Position numbers and translations under genes: made by a program. A DNA stretch of 64,000 nt from Bacteroidales bacterium. GTDB taxonomy: Bacteria; Bacteroidota; Bacteroidia; Bacteroidales; UBA4181. Numbering within the stretch: position 1 is the stretch's first letter; every line of letters begins with the position of its first letter. The stretch spans positions 1-64,000 of the forward strand of contig JAISOY010000203.1 in assembly GCA_031275285.1 (NCBI GenBank). The letters are read 5' to 3'. This document shows, piece by piece, positions 5,005 through 64,000 of the stretch. The notes beneath the pieces were generated by a model. That model searched no databases. It was not told the origin of the DNA and saw nothing but the letters and a program-made list of their open reading frames with translations.

Positions 5005-6624
<1,620 letters not shown>

Positions 6625-52603: not shown

Positions 52604-55600
52604 TTACTTCGGTTTGCGTTTCAATATTTTTTTATACTTGTCGGGTATCCTGAATTTGAAATCGGGTATCTTAAACCTTTCCTTGAAGTTATATACCAGT
52701 ACAAAGAAAAAAGGTACCAGGATAATACCTATGGTTATAGCCAGAATCATACCGAAAAACACACCGCTACCAATGGAATGGCGACTTGCCGATCCCGGCC
52801 CTGAAGCAATAACCATCGGTAACATACCTAATACGAACGCCAAAGAAGTCATCAGGATCGGCCTGAATCGCAATTTTGCAGCCTGAAGAGCTGCCTGCAT
52901 GGGGGTATCGCCATTTTCGACCTGCATCTTGGCAAATTCTATGATCAGGATGGCATTTTTGGTAGCAAGGCCGATAAGGGTAACCAACCCTATCTGGAAA
53001 TAAATATCGTTATTAAGTCCCAGAACCCAAATCCCGAGATATGCACCTAAAGCCGACACAGGAATAGAAAGCAGGGCCGATATGGGTACTACCCAGCTTT
53101 CGTACAGTGCTGCAAGGAACAGGAATACAAAAATAAATACAAGGGTCATTACCTTCCCTGTTTGTCCCGATGCTTTTTGTTCCTGGAAGGAAAGCCCGCT
53201 CCATGAGAATCCTATATTTTTTGGAAGATGTTTCTTTGAAATCCGTTCAATAGCCTTCATCGCTTGCCCCGAGCTATACCCTGCTGCAGGGGTTACCTGT
53301 ATAGGGGCCGATGTAAACATATTGAACCGGGTAATGCTTCCGGGACCTGTGGTATATTCTGTTTTCCCCAGTACAGTAAGCGGTACCATGGTGCCATTGG
53401 AAGTCTTTACAAAAAAGAGGCTGATATCATCCTGAGTCGAACGAAAAGATTGGTCGGCCTGGATATAGACCTTATATATACGGTTGAACATGTTGAAATC
53501 ATTCACATATACCGAACCCAGATAAGCTTTCATGGTTGAGAAGATATCCGATATAGGTACTCCCAGTAACTTAGCGAGGTCTTTGTCCACATCAAAATAT
53601 ATCAACGGTATCTCGGGTTGCAGCGCACTTGACACATTGGCAACTTCTTTAGCCCTTGATGCATAGTAGATAAAAGAATCCACACCCGTTGCTAAGTCGT
53701 CCCATTGAGCATCCGATTTTGCCTGCAGTTTCAATTCTACGCCGCCTGCACCTCCAAGCCCCGGAACTACTGGAGGACGGCTGGTATACGCCTTTATTTC
53801 GGGATAGTTATATAACTCATCTAATATTATATGCATCACTTCTTCCACATCCTGGCCTCTTTTCTTCCATGGTTTCAGTATCACAGTGAGGGTAGACCGT
53901 CCCTGGTTTGAGCCTACCCTTGGACTGGAGCCGGTTACATTCTGCACATACTCCACAGCATCCAATTGGTTGATAAAAGTAACTGCCCTGTCGGTTACCG
54001 TCCGCATACGTTCGAGTGTGGTTCCCTCAGGCATTTCGAGTTCCACGGTAAAGAATCCCTGGTCTTCCTGTGGTATAAATCCTGTGGGTATATATTTGTT
54101 CAGAACGAATATCAATACCAATACCATTCCGAAACCCGCCAGGATTCTTTTCGGGTATCCGCATATTTTACCCAGGATACCGGTATATTTTTTATTGCCT
54201 TTATCTAACCAGATATTGATTTTCCTGAAAATAATATTCCGGGTTCTTTTGTGAGGTCTCAGGATAATAGCGCACATGGCAGGACTCAAAGTCAGGGCCA
54301 CTACTGTGGAAATCAATACCGATACCACAATAGTAATGGAAAATTGCCTGAACAGTGAACCGGTTATTCCGTCAAGAAAACTTACCGGTATAAATACGGC
54401 AGCCAGTACCATGGAGGTAGCAATAAGCGCACCGGTAAGCTCTTTCATTGCGATATGCGTTGCCGCACGTGCACCTATTTTGCGCGAATTCATGATACGT
54501 TCCACATTTTCGACAACCACAATGGCATCGTCCACCACAATACCTATAGCCAGTACCAACCCCAACAATGTGAGCATATTCAGGGAGAATCCCATAATCA
54601 ACATAAACCCGAAAGTGCCGATCAGCGAAATAGGGACGGCTATGATAGGAATAAAGGCAGCACGCCAGCTTTGCAATGACAGGAATACCACCAGGATTAC
54701 CAGGAAAAGAGCCTCAAACAAAGTTTTATACACTTCACTGATAGATTCGGAGATATATTCTGTAATGTCGAAAGGTATCAGATAATCCAGGCCCTCAGGA
54801 AAACTTTGAGCTATTTCATTGATTGCCCTTTTTACTTCATCGGCCACTTCTATAGCATTGGCGCCGGGCAACAGGTAAACACTCAGTATAGCAGCATTCT
54901 TGCCGTTTAAACCACTTTCCGTATTATACGACGAAGCTTCAAGTGATACCCTGGCCACGTCCCGCATCCTAATAAAAGATCCGTCGTTATTGGCTTTCAC
55001 AACAATGTCTTCAAAATCACTGACCGTAGAAAGACGCCCCCTGGCCGTAATAGTAACTGCTACATCCACATCCGAAACCGGAGGTTTACCGATCTCACCT
55101 GCTGCCGATTCCCGGTTCTGGTCTTTTAATGCGTCCTGCAGATCTTTTACCGTTATCCCGAAACTTGCCATCTTATCGGGGTATACCCATATCTGCATGC
55201 CATAATACCGGCTTCCTACATTCGACACCCGGCCTACTCCGGGTATACGGCCAATAATATCCAGCACATTGATGGTAGCATAGTTGCTCAGGTATATTTC
55301 GTCGAACTTCGGATCATCGGACACAAGGGCAATGGTCAGTAACTGGCTGGTCGCCTGCTTCTCTATGGATACACCATTTTGTATCACTTCGGCAGGCAAA
55401 CGGGATTCTGCCAGTTTCACCCTGTTCTGGACTTCCACTGCTGCAAAATCCACATTGGTATTTACATCAAAAGTGACGCTTATGGATAACCCGCCGGAGT
55501 TGGAACTGCTCGATTCCATATATATCATTCCCGGCGTACCGTTCAGTACCTGTTCAATGGGAGTCGATACCGCCTGGGATACCGTAGTGGCATTAGCACC

Positions 55601-55753
55601 AGGGTAAGACGCGCTGATCTTTACCACCGGTGGCGTAATATGCGGGTATTGTTCCACCGGCAGGGAAAACAACCCTATAATACCTAACAGTACGATCAGT
55701 ACTGAGATAACGGTTGAAAAAACAGGACGGTCAATGAAAAATCCCGGTTTCAT
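52604..55753 (-). CDS. RND efflux pump inner-membrane transporter (AcrB/HAE1 type)
   Basis: A 1049-residue proton-driven multidrug exporter. Length, twelve membrane segments and the two large periplasmic loops fit the HAE1 RND family. The proton-relay aspartates are seen in GIVVDDAIVVVEN in membrane segment 4, and other family motifs are GFIPQEDQGFF and GLNNDIYFQIGLVTLIGL. The C-terminus carries a short basic tail (KYKKILKRKPK). The gene starts immediately after the adaptor stop. Substrate range cannot be predicted from sequence; no dedicated regulator is adjacent. Confidence 0.96.
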   Translation of the reverse strand: MKPGFFIDRPVFSTVISVLIVLLGIIGLFSLPVEQYPHITPPVVKISASYPGANATTVSQAVSTPIEQVLNGTPGMIYMESSSSNSGGLSISVTFDVNTNVDFAAVEVQNRVKLAESRLPAEVIQNGVSIEKQATSQLLTIALVSDDPKFDEIYLSNYATINVLDIIGRIPGVGRVSNVGSRYYGMQIWVYPDKMASFGITVKDLQDALKDQNRESAAGEIGKPPVSDVDVAVTITARGRLSTVSDFEDIVVKANNDGSFIRMRDVARVSLEASSYNTESGLNGKNAAILSVYLLPGANAIEVADEVKRAINEIAQSFPEGLDYLIPFDITEYISESISEVYKTLFEALFLVILVVFLSLQSWRAAFIPIIAVPISLIGTFGFMLIMGFSLNMLTLLGLVLAIGIVVDDAIVVVENVERIMNSRKIGARAATHIAMKELTGALIATSMVLAAVFIPVSFLDGITGSLFRQFSITIVVSVLISTVVALTLSPAMCAIILRPHKRTRNIIFRKINIWLDKGNKKYTGILGKICGYPKRILAGFGMVLVLIFVLNKYIPTGFIPQEDQGFFTVELEMPEGTTLERMRTVTDRAVTFINQLDAVEYVQNVTGSSPRVGSNQGRSTLTVILKPWKKRGQDVEEVMHIILDELYNYPEIKAYTSRPPVVPGLGGAGGVELKLQAKSDAQWDDLATGVDSFIYYASRAKEVANVSSALQPEIPLIYFDVDKDLAKLLGVPISDIFSTMKAYLGSVYVNDFNMFNRIYKVYIQADQSFRSTQDDISLFFVKTSNGTMVPLTVLGKTEYTTGPGSITRFNMFTSAPIQVTPAAGYSSGQAMKAIERISKKHLPKNIGFSWSGLSFQEQKASGQTGKVMTLVFIFVFLFLAALYESWVVPISALLSIPVSALGAYLGIWVLGLNNDIYFQIGLVTLIGLATKNAILIIEFAKMQVENGDTPMQAALQAAKLRFRPILMTSLAFVLGMLPMVIASGPGSASRHSIGSGVFFGMILAITIGIILVPFFFVLVYNFKERFKIPDFKFRIPDKYKKILKRKPK

Positions 55754-56914
55754 CTATTCGTACTCCTCTTTAATTCCCTGGTTTTCGTAATATGGTTCTA
55801 CAACCGGGTCGCGGGCTATTACCTTTTGTCCCGGTGTCAGTTTATGATGTCCTTCCACCACTATTTTTTCGTAAGGACTAACTCCACGTGTAACTACTAT
55901 CTTATTATCATGTTCAGGTCCAGTTTCCACAAATCTTTTTTCGGCAATACTATCCCGGCGCACCACGAATAAAAAGGCCCCGCCTTTTTCTATCGAGATT
56001 GCTTTCTGGGGGACTATCATCACATTTTCCATCACATCGAGCAGAAGGGTTACCCTGGTAAACTGTCCCGGGAGAAGTTCCTGGTTAGGGTTAGGCAGTT
56101 CGGCCCTTACACCGAAAGTACCGGTCTGCGGATCTACCTGTGGCGAGGCAAAATCCACAATTCCCTCTTTGCCGTAAATGGTATTATCGGCAAGAGTAAC
56201 CGTAATGGTCGGTTGCCAGGACCGGGTGGAATCCAGTTCACCCAGGTGAACGTTACGCCGCTGGCTTCTTAAATAATCGAGAGCCGTAAGTTTAAAATCC
56301 ACGAGCACAGTATCCCGTCTCACCACTGTCGCCAGTAGGGAAGAATTGGACTTACCCACAAGTGTACCAATATCCACATGCCTTTCGCTGATATAACCTG
56401 ACAGCGGTGAACGTACCACTGTATAGCTCAGTTCCAGTTCGGCCTGGGACAGATCTGCCTTACTCATGGATACGCTGGCCTTAGCCATATCCAAAGCCGC
56501 TATGGCATTATCCAGATCGAGGCGGCTGGCTGCATTCTGTTCGTACAATGGTTCGATACGATGTAGATCCCTCTCTGCCTTTGCAGCCTGGGCCTCATCT
56601 TTTTTCAATTGTGCACGCGCCTTTTCAACTTTTGCCTTGTATACCTCGGCATTGATATAAAACAAGGGCTCGCCGCTCTCTACCCTTTTACCTTCACTAA
56701 AGGTCATCCGTTCAAGATAACCTTCCACACGCGCATGTATCTCTACGCTACGGTATGCCCGGATCAATCCCGAATATTTCCCATAAATTTCAATATTATC
56801 TATGGATACATTTTCAACGGCTACAACCGGAGGCTTTTCCTCACTCCTTTTACATGCACCGGAAGATATGATATATATCAATATTAAATAAGAAGCTATT
56901 TTCCTGAATTTCAT
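55754..56914 (-). CDS. RND efflux periplasmic adaptor (AcrA type)
   Basis: A 386-residue membrane-fusion protein linking the pump and the outer-membrane channel. Signal peptide with lipobox Cys21 (SGAC). The order is lipoyl-like halves (about 60-85 and 165-200), a coiled-coil hairpin (about 85-155), a beta barrel and a membrane-proximal domain (KAISIEKGGAFLFVV; KIVVEGHHKLTPGQKV). It is the first gene of the efflux operon; its stop is directly followed by the pump ATG. A -7-like box TAGATTTG lies at 56971-56964. Confidence 0.94.
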   Translation of the reverse strand: MKFRKIASYLILIYIISSGACKRSEEKPPVVAVENVSIDNIEIYGKYSGLIRAYRSVEIHARVEGYLERMTFSEGKRVESGEPLFYINAEVYKAKVEKARAQLKKDEAQAAKAERDLHRIEPLYEQNAASRLDLDNAIAALDMAKASVSMSKADLSQAELELSYTVVRSPLSGYISERHVDIGTLVGKSNSSLLATVVRRDTVLVDFKLTALDYLRSQRRNVHLGELDSTRSWQPTITVTLADNTIYGKEGIVDFASPQVDPQTGTFGVRAELPNPNQELLPGQFTRVTLLLDVMENVMIVPQKAISIEKGGAFLFVVRRDSIAEKRFVETGPEHDNKIVVTRGVSPYEKIVVEGHHKLTPGQKVIARDPVVEPYYENQGIKEEYE

Positions 56915-59960: not shown

Positions 59961-60071
59961 CTATTTATAAACATCTGATTTTTAGTAAGCTGCAATAGAT
60001 AGTAAGCCGGTCGCATAAATCGTAAAAGTCGCAAAATAAACGTACTGATAGTCAAAGTTTTATAAAACAAG

Positions 60072-60145
60072 TCGGGGTGAAAAGACTCGAACTTTCGACC
60101 CCTTGCACCCCATGCAAGTGCGCTAGCCAACTGCGCCACACCCCG
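60072..60145 (-). tRNA. tRNA-Pro (anticodon GGG)
   Basis: A complete 74-nt cloverleaf: acceptor CGGGGTG/CACCCCG, D-stem GCGC/GCGC, anticodon stem CTTGC/GCAAG with loop ATGGGGT (U33, anticodon GGG, G37), 5-nt variable loop, T-stem GAAAG/CTTTT with the TTCGAGT loop, and discriminator A73. The CCA end is not encoded. A good promoter lies directly upstream (60162-60192). An apparent 87-residue reading frame across it is spurious. Confidence 0.92.
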
Positions 60146-62051: not shown

Positions 62052-62702
62052 TTATAGCTCTGATAAAGCTTGCCCGGTAAATTTTGGCTTAATAGCAGGA
62101 AATATATACCCCAGACCTATTCCTACCGATTGGGGATACATTTTGTTATTGTTATTTTGTGATGTCAACGCATTGAGTACTCCTATCTTATATTCTAGTT
62201 GAAGAGAAAGTCCGAATTTAAAACGATATCCGATCATATATCCAAGTCCGAAATCCATTCTTTTCAGGTATTCTTCATCGTACAGGTCTATGTCGTTTGT
62301 CCGGTCTGAAGCAATAAATCCTGCCCCCAGGTATATTCCCGCACCCATATGGATAGAACTGTTATCAGATCCCCATCGGTATAAAGCATAAATCGGTATT
62401 TCCGCACCACAGATCATCAATTCCCGGGAAGTCCCGTCCATATCGTTTTTGATCATGTTTGACCTGTAATAAACATTAAATTCCGGCTGGACAATGAAAT
62501 GATTTGAAATTTCCACTGGAATCATGCCTCCCAAAGATACTCCGAATCTCATGTCGCTTGAATGTCCGTTTTTGTGCTTCATGATATAATCGAAGCCAAT
62601 AGCGGAAGATTTAAATCCGACGCTGATATTGTACTGGGCCTTTATCCCGGGATGTATCCATCCGGAAATAAATAATGTCAATACTAATAAAAGCTTTTTC
62701 AT
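62052..62702 (-). CDS. PorT-like outer-membrane beta-barrel protein (copy 2)
   Basis: A 216-residue protein with a signal peptide (1-22, IKA-QY) and a small outer-membrane beta-barrel pattern of alternating residues, closest to PorT-like (OMP_b-brl_2) proteins of Bacteroidota. Conserved barrel segments are MIPVEISNHFIVQPEFNVYY (about 55-74), GYMIGYRFKFGLSLQLEYKIG and a C-terminal GIGLGYIFP. It is a paralog of 62921-63526, with the same order of segments. Function of such small barrels is mostly unknown. The stop codon overlaps no neighbour. Upstream is a segment with long inverted arms. Confidence 0.8.
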   Translation of the reverse strand: MKKLLLVLTLFISGWIHPGIKAQYNISVGFKSSAIGFDYIMKHKNGHSSDMRFGVSLGGMIPVEISNHFIVQPEFNVYYRSNMIKNDMDGTSRELMICGAEIPIYALYRWGSDNSSIHMGAGIYLGAGFIASDRTNDIDLYDEEYLKRMDFGLGYMIGYRFKFGLSLQLEYKIGVLNALTSQNNNNKMYPQSVGIGLGYIFPAIKPKFTGQALSEL

Positions 62703-62920: not shown

Positions 62921-63526
62921 TTAGAATCTATATCCAAATCCCACACTGATCATTTGCGGTAACATTTTGGCATCATCGCTTCCTTCATCCATTGCGTTGA
63001 TTACCCCGATCTTGTACCCGGCATTGATCTGAAGGCCAAAGTCGAATTCATATCCGAGCATAGCGCCAAATCCGAAGTCCCAGCGTTGCAAAACATCTCT
63101 CTTATACAAATCACTACTTCCCGGACTTGATTTTGCACTGAATCCTAAGCCTACATAAGGACCTATCCCTACATAACCTGTTCCTAGCCCCAGTTGCATC
63201 TGACCAACTGCATATACCGGAATTTCCATTCCCCAGTACTCATAATCGCTTTTGGTCTTTGGTCGGGTAGAGTTATTTTTTATTTCCGAACTTTTGAAAT
63301 GAAACAATAACTCAGGTTGTATTGCAAAATTTTGTGTGAACTCTATTTTTACAAAGCCACCTAACGATGCGCCTACTTTCATTTTGCTATCCATGTGATC
63401 CAGGTCCTTCAGGATAAAGTTCGAGATATTTAAATCTGCTTTAACCCCGCTTGTTACGCTTTGAGCACTTATCTGTGTAAAGCCAGCTGCTAATATAACT
63501 GCCAGAGATAAAATTATTCTTTTCAT
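62921..63526 (-). CDS. PorT-like outer-membrane beta-barrel protein (copy 1)
   Basis: A 201-residue protein with signal peptide (1-21, ISA-QS) and beta-barrel pattern. Segments IEFTQNFAIQPELLFHFKS (about 56-74), GYVGIGPYVGLGFSAKS, and EFDFGLQINAGYKIGVINAM match the paralog downstream, and it ends with GFGYRF, an aromatic last residue typical for outer-membrane barrels. It is 218 bp upstream of copy 2 in the same direction and follows a small HTH gene after a structured gap. Function is unknown. Confidence 0.8.
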   Translation of the reverse strand: MKRIILSLAVILAAGFTQISAQSVTSGVKADLNISNFILKDLDHMDSKMKVGASLGGFVKIEFTQNFAIQPELLFHFKSSEIKNNSTRPKTKSDYEYWGMEIPVYAVGQMQLGLGTGYVGIGPYVGLGFSAKSSPGSSDLYKRDVLQRWDFGFGAMLGYEFDFGLQINAGYKIGVINAMDEGSDDAKMLPQMISVGFGYRF

Positions 63527-63564: not shown

Positions 63565-63610
63565 AAATAGGACTCACTTATCGGCCGATATTCATGAGTC
63601 GTTCCTATTT
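63565..63610. repeat. Nested inverted repeat between HTH gene and barrel gene
   Basis: Outer arms AAATAGGA-CTCA (63565-63576) and TGAG-TCG(T)-TCCTATTT (63595-63610) with a 4-nt bulge on one side enclose the perfect 12-bp palindrome TATCGGCCGATA (63579-63590). It lies 50 bp after the HTH gene stop and 39 bp before the barrel gene start, so it may be a terminator or an operator. The palindrome is more like a protein-binding site than a terminator loop. Confidence 0.5.
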
Positions 63611-63660: not shown

Positions 63661-63846
63661 TCAAGCCCTTTTTCGCATTTCTTTTACCCATTCGGAAGGA
63701 CTTCTTCCGGTATGTTCCATGGTAATATCCGAAAGCTCTACTGGACTTATTCCAAGTTGTTCTGCATAAAAACCTGTGTCTTGTTCTTCCTTGAAATACA
63801 GTTTTGCCAGTGTCAAAAACCTGAGAAACAATTTTTCCTTTTCCAT
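63661..63846 (-). CDS. Single-HTH AraC-like microprotein
   Basis: A 61-residue protein that matches only the first helix-turn-helix of the AraC/XylS DNA-binding domain: FLTLAKLYFKEEQDTGFYAE followed by QLGISPVELSD and GRSPSEW. Full AraC proteins carry a second HTH after this; here the frame ends after KRA. It is complete from ATG 63846 to its stop. A second copy with the same end lies upstream (63887-64000). A half-site DNA-binding or dimer-forming role can be imagined, but it may also be a remnant. The nearest downstream gene is the barrel copy 1. Confidence 0.65.
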   Translation of the reverse strand: MEKEKLFLRFLTLAKLYFKEEQDTGFYAEQLGISPVELSDITMEHTGRSPSEWVKEMRKRA

Positions 63847-63886
63847 GATAGATTTATTTTATGATTTAACTTTTATTTTTTTATTG

Positions 63887-64000
63887 CTATGCTCTTTTCT
63901 GCATGGTGTCCAACCAATCTGATAAGGTGCTCTCACTCTTTTCCCAGATGATCTCAGAAAGTTCATCTGAACTTACTCCAAGATGTTCTGAGTAAAACCC
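63887..64000 (-). CDS. Second single-HTH AraC-like microprotein (5' end missing)
   Basis: The last 37 residues of a minus-strand gene whose start lies past the right edge. GFYSEHLGVSSDELSEI and LSDWLDTMQKRA align position for position with GFYAEQLGISPVELSDI and PSEWVKEMRKRA of the neighbour, and the stop falls at the same place. The start is outside the window, so a longer N-terminal domain cannot be excluded. The gap to the next gene is 40 bp, so the two are probably cotranscribed. Confidence 0.6.
   Translation of the reverse strand, partial: GFYSEHLGVSSDELSEIIWEKSESTLSDWLDTMQKRA

Follow-up and report, generated by a model that had tools for sequence, protein, structure and literature searches.

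A family of single-HTH microproteins related to the first half of the AraC domain in a Bacteroidales genome, with a possible role in protein binding

Introduction

At the right edge of the window analysed here, which covers bases 1-64,000 of contig C203 (111,956 bases) in a 5.5 Mb, 225-contig Bacteroidales assembly, two adjacent minus-strand genes encode products that stop after a single AraC-type helix-turn-helix (HTH). Are such half domains local regulators of the genes beside them, partners of full AraC proteins, or mere remnants? AraC-type regulators are numerous in Bacteroidales (this genome encodes about 40 full HTH_18 domains), and small modulators of such regulators are known mainly from enteric pathogens. 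Short genes that fall below Pfam cut-offs are easily left unannotated or dismissed as fragments.

Results

Organization of the locus

The adjacent pair and its common end after one AraC-type HTH were confirmed. Microprotein A1 (63661..63846, minus strand) and microprotein A2 (minus strand; the window holds its 3′ part, 63887..64000) are open reading frames of 61 amino acids each, 48% identical, and both end 8 residues past the conserved Trp of helix 4. When the sequence was extended beyond the edge (C203 coordinates above 64,000), as the initial annotation had proposed, A2 proved to be a gene of its own, with an ATG at C203:64072, a stop codon at 63887-63889 and a whole coding span of 64072-63887. 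A third tandem gene, microprotein B1 (64 amino acids, coding C203:64089-64280, minus strand), was found about 13 bases upstream of it. With a start codon of its own and a separate gene upstream, A2 is not the last part of a longer AraC or two-component regulator. No second HTH is present at any A locus or in any of the frames that follow the A stop codons, which rules out frameshifted AraC genes, and nothing at the C203 locus matches the second half of the domain.

The microprotein genes lie upstream of, and in the same direction as, two outer-membrane β-barrel genes, as first described. Barrel 1 (62921..63526, minus strand, 201 amino acids) matches PF13505 (1.1e-16) and barrel 2 (62052..62702, minus strand, 216 amino acids) matches PF13568 (3e-10), both over cut-off, and the two are paralogs with 36% identity. 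Read along the minus strand, the order is B1, 13 bases, A2, 40 bases, A1, a 134-base spacer with a hairpin, barrel 1, 218 bases and barrel 2. A Sir2-like gene lies further upstream, past a Bacteroidales-type promoter match (TTTG-TACTTTTG, ~64510-64482) that precedes B1. Between this promoter-like site and B1, beyond the window edge, is a 37-codon frame, MDNKISYPTNRIKMRPFFSVARIPSGNFSLPAQVVIK (~64460-64347; L005 2460-2350, minus strand), possibly a leader peptide or a product of chance. Elsewhere in the window, a tRNA-Pro(ggg) gene occupies 60071-60145 (minus strand).

The palindrome TATCGGCCGATA (63579-63590) is indeed present between the pair and the barrels, within an imperfect inverted repeat (~63565-63610) that gives a hairpin on the minus strand between A1 and barrel 1. 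The window contains 25 perfect 12-bp palindromes, so that TATCGGCCGATA alone is unremarkable. The 131-base stretch with the hairpin has a folding z-score of -1.9, and 9 of 200 shuffled sequences fold equally well; the hairpin (63565-63610) was not called as a terminator. It is a possible attenuator, processing site or operator for this locus. None of the remaining microprotein and barrel loci fetched contains TATCGGCCGATA, which rules it out as an operator of the family. Because the promoter-type match seen upstream of B1 was not found between A1 and barrel 1, the microproteins and barrels may be transcribed together, in which case the hairpin could act as an attenuator.

Fold of the microproteins

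The AraC/XylS DNA-binding domain spans about 100 residues and carries two HTH motifs; the A copies have homology to its first half (HTH1) and lack the remainder. Of the 80 positions of the HTH_18 model (PF12833), only 1-32 align with A1, at 20.2 bits against a cut-off of 33.6, and its matches to the A copies in general are weak and confined to the first 29-32 positions. At the A loci, the whole-genome HTH_18 search returned only the half domain of A1. A profile built from the A copies nevertheless retrieves the HTH1 of full-length AraC proteins with E-values down to 1e-16, and the full-length relatives in the same genome share 28-42% identity with the microproteins over ~55 residues.

An AlphaFold2 model of A1 from a five-row alignment (pLDDT 93.6) places helices at residues 3-17, 24-31, 35-46 and 50-60, and predicts a complete, self-standing four-helix domain. 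The A copies keep the invariant HTH core residues. Ranked by probability, the top matches of a Foldseek search with this model include AraC domains, one of them 3oio (TMq 0.84, r.m.s.d. 1.0, probability 1.00, E 0.45), with every E-value above 0.1, as expected for a chain so short.

Copies in the genome and their neighbours

The observation is real and larger than initially noted, a family rather than a pair. The genome holds eight stand-alone microproteins of 61-64 amino acids (7.1-7.7 kDa). Five form family A (61-62 amino acids), two on C203 and three on other contigs (C129:4803, C69:5984 and C124:10564), with 34-56% identity to A1. Three form family B (64 amino acids; C203, C7:2046 and C41:65360), which has drifted far from the HTH profiles and is modelled poorly (pLDDT 61). 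The A and B profiles share an aligned region of 58 columns (E 8e-9, probability 95.7), which suggests that family B is a diverged branch of the A-type HTH1. By these comparisons, the A copies appear derived from the first half of the AraC domain and the B copies appear to be its more distant relatives.

The neighbours differ from locus to locus. A3 comes after two tandem winged-helix genes (DUF2582; products of 69-82 residues, L006 4163-4411 and 4415-4624), and G006 has a gene similar to this pair on its barrel contig (L097 3-233). A4 lies ~20 bases after an alkaline phosphatase gene. A5 (L040 4565-4753) is at the 3′ end of an efflux-type operon (OEP/HlyD/MacB) and is followed by a His-kinase/LytTR pair; its start lies 8 bases before the stop of the macB permease gene, and this overlap suggests that A5 is coupled to macB. 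B3 (L099 5358-5549) is also at the 3′ end of an efflux-type operon, after a transporter-like gene that has an HlyD protein gene upstream. Envelope functions thus recur beside the copies, as efflux (A5, B3), alkaline phosphatase (A4) and barrels (C203), a recurrence noted without a statistical test.

Relatives of barrel 1 are found on C1 and C170 of the same genome and in G003, G006 and G002. Barrels adjoin only one of the six microprotein loci, and three other barrel loci (C1 and C170, and one in the sister genome G003) have no adjacent microprotein. The proposal that the pair are local, barrel-specific regulators is weak on these counts. RND pump and HlyD-type adaptor genes occur in the window at 52604-56914 (minus strand). 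In G003, the nearest barrel relative is beside TetR, OEP, HlyD and RND genes (L094); judging by this arrangement, barrel and pump genes may formerly have sat side by side. On C1, a barrel paralog has beside it a divergent full-length AraC gene, and directly downstream of the latter is a lone second-HTH AraC fragment (C1:67248-67334; L092 ~6249-6335; HTH_18 positions 46-74) that looks like true AraC debris.

Selection and origin

The frames are intact at 34-56% identity, and in all pairs codon positions 1 and 2 are more conserved than position 3, whose identity is low. Wherever dS was computable, dN was lower (A1-A3, 0.29/1.59, dN/dS ~0.18; B1-B2, 0.40/1.51), although these values are rough, since dS is saturated for many pairs. 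The codons thus look to be under purifying selection, in agreement with the initial suggestion of retention rather than random decay.

That the identical ends reflect independent design was not supported. In a tree of the HTH1 segment, one branch separates twelve full-length proteins from all microproteins with support 100/98, although its 60 columns neither order the copies nor place family B. Because the microproteins group together against the full-length HTH1s, the common end point is most simply read as inherited: one truncation followed by duplication suffices, and independent identical truncations are needless.

Family B reaches beyond this genome. In the sister genome G005, an open reading frame with 65% identity to B2 follows a homolog of the gene upstream of B2 (blastp 1e-16), and this shared position indicates an ortholog. 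Family B is thus older than this species and not limited to it. An order-wide search for family B returned the own genome only, from a draw that did not hold every member of the genus.

For family A, profile searches over 393 genomes of the order, 395 of the class and 396 of the phylum gave no clear short A-type gene outside the own genome. They returned full-length AraC genes and a few shorter frames, such as one of 117 residues at a contig edge with an ordinary KYL motif, which are probably cut genes. No A copy was found when eight genus relatives, several of them incomplete (57-93%), were searched with single A proteins, nor in the ~1.2 Mb of 4.6 Mb scanned in G005, where the B2 ortholog is present. 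Exact short-pattern scans of contigs from other genomes, the own genome excluded, gave no confirmed relatives, a weak negative. The viral contigs searched held no microprotein match. A phage or plasmid origin was rejected: the tblastn matches were only 32-44% identical, consistent with full-length AraC genes.

Recognition helix

We compared the 12-residue recognition stretch of the A copies with that of full-length HTH1s, 41 different ones taken from this genome and its order. The net charge is -3, -3, -4, -1 and -3 in the five A copies, and 0 to +3 in the 41 full-length HTH1s; the helix is thus acidic in 5/5 A copies and in 0/41 relatives. A rank test on own-genome proteins gave p = 0.0005, although the A copies are related and do not count as independent points. 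Because of this relatedness, the acidic helix is one shift retained rather than five independent changes.

The basic and aromatic character of this helix in the relatives is not seen in the A copies. At the position where 34 of the 41 relatives have Tyr and 5 have His, the A copies have Glu, Glu, Glu, Glu and Asp. The preceding position (Lys/Arg in 32/41) has become Val, Asp, Asp, Asp and Asp, and a later one (Lys/Arg in 35/41) is Met, Trp, Leu, Arg and Glu. A4 and A5 keep an Arg at one recognition position. In our alignment to MarA the shifted positions correspond to residues 42, 43 and 49, which adjoin the DNA-contacting residues of MarA (42, 45 and 46). DNA contacts of ExsA were taken from PMC12648661.

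Discussion

Our tentative reading is that the A copies are protein-binding antagonists or adaptors of AraC-type transcription that have given up AraC-style reading of DNA. A protein-binding module fits better than either a DNA-binding regulator or a remnant, because the fold is intact, the DNA-reading side chains are lost, the acidity is retained and the copies are dispersed in operon positions. To judge from these features, the five copies probably regulate through protein contacts rather than by reading DNA. The HTH1 half of a Bacteroidetes-type AraC protein (support helix, HTH helices 2-3 and linker helix 4) would have been freed once, and then duplicated and dispersed. Its descendants would no longer read AraC sites and would act, most simply, by competing for a surface of full-length AraC proteins that is normally taken by HTH1; the sensor domain, the HTH2 side and the RNA polymerase contact are candidate surfaces. 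The likeliest targets would be the many AraC-type regulators of this genome, whose HTH1 surface would be mimicked, with RNA polymerase as the alternative. Each copy would be made with its operon, from the promoter upstream of B1 on C203 and by translational coupling to macB elsewhere, and would tune AraC-controlled transcription as antagonist or adaptor.

The initial annotation had also offered the pair as dominant-negative partners of full AraC proteins. Given that basic and aromatic side chains are gone from the recognition helix, we favour a modified version of this. The initial interpretation as a whole is partly supported. Several points count against the protein-binding reading, among them the Arg kept by A4 and A5 and the single origin of the charge shift. 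Known AraC proteins dimerise through their N-terminal domain, and since the microproteins have none, there is no ready-made interface for heterodimers; an acidic helix would leave backbone contacts to DNA possible; and dimeric DNA binding is seen in other small HTH proteins. The B copies, with their poor model (pLDDT 61), are too diverged to be judged.

It is rather unlikely, though worth weighing, that the microproteins are small DNA-binding regulators, using a single HTH, as dimers or with altered specificity, to repress or activate their own operons, including the barrels. The HTH fold and its invariant core are kept, the contexts are operon-like, the stretch between A1 and the barrels holds an inverted repeat, and A4 and A5 retain one recognition-helix Arg. 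The acidity shared by all five A copies and by none of the 41 relatives argues against such a role, as do the differing neighbours at six loci and the absence of TATCGGCCGATA from the other microprotein and barrel loci fetched.

We consider it unlikely that the fold has been re-used outside regulation, as an envelope or efflux chaperone or adaptor, part of a toxin-antitoxin system or a metabolic peptide. The acidic surface, the distance of family B from HTH profiles and the envelope-function neighbours (a MacB-type ABC transporter, an HlyD-linked efflux operon, alkaline phosphatase and barrels) would suit it. However, no partner gene is common to the loci, fold and core are those of an AraC HTH1, and the family scans gave no toxin, antitoxin or phage family above cut-off. 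That the copies are functionless remnants of 3′-truncated or decaying AraC genes is very improbable and largely refuted: real AraC debris exists in the genome (C1:67248-67334), but eight copies and an ortholog keep intact frames despite strong divergence, A1-A3 dN/dS is ~0.18 with low third-position identity in all pairs, no HTH2 remnant lies downstream, and the model is of high confidence.

In the open-access papers searched we found no single-HTH AraC microprotein family, the conceptual neighbours being ANR, VirF21 and eukaryotic microProteins. With full-length Bacteroidales AraC/XylS proteins (HTH_18, PF12833) they share the HTH1, its support and linker helices and the fold, but they have neither N-terminal sensor domain nor HTH2, and in the A copies the recognition helix is acidic.

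The AraC Negative Regulators (ANR: Aar, Rnr) of enteric pathogens are helical proteins of 39-80 amino acids that contact AraC-type regulators and H-NS and block DNA binding (PMC4038620, PMC10148876). Small size is common to both, the microproteins at 7.1-7.7 kDa being below the 10 kDa bound for ANR, whereas the host lineage differs from the enteric one of ANR. Pfam and NCBIfam scans of the microproteins named no ANR-type family. Aar was described in 2014 as having no homology to known repressors (PMC4038620), while the derivation of the microproteins from HTH1 points to a separate origin; judged by the ANR descriptions, they would be working analogues and not members. VirF21 is a short form of Shigella VirF made from an internal start in the virF gene (PMC5101355), likewise a shortened AraC-type product, but the microproteins are separate genes and much shorter.

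Eukaryotic microProteins are single domains evolved from larger multidomain regulators, which they are inferred to titrate (PMC5381583, PMC6003976, PMC7534434). Family A has the same derivation, and family B only by way of the A-B profile match; for the AraC microproteins an interaction with targets is proposed only. None of the papers searched describes a bacterial AraC case. The wider idea, that the charge-reversed HTH1 is a lineage-specific module that antagonises or rewires several AraC regulators, a separate counterpart of ANR and of eukaryotic microProteins, we regard as possible but doubtful. If it is true, it would show that a separate regulator can arise from one half of a DNA-binding domain in bacteria.
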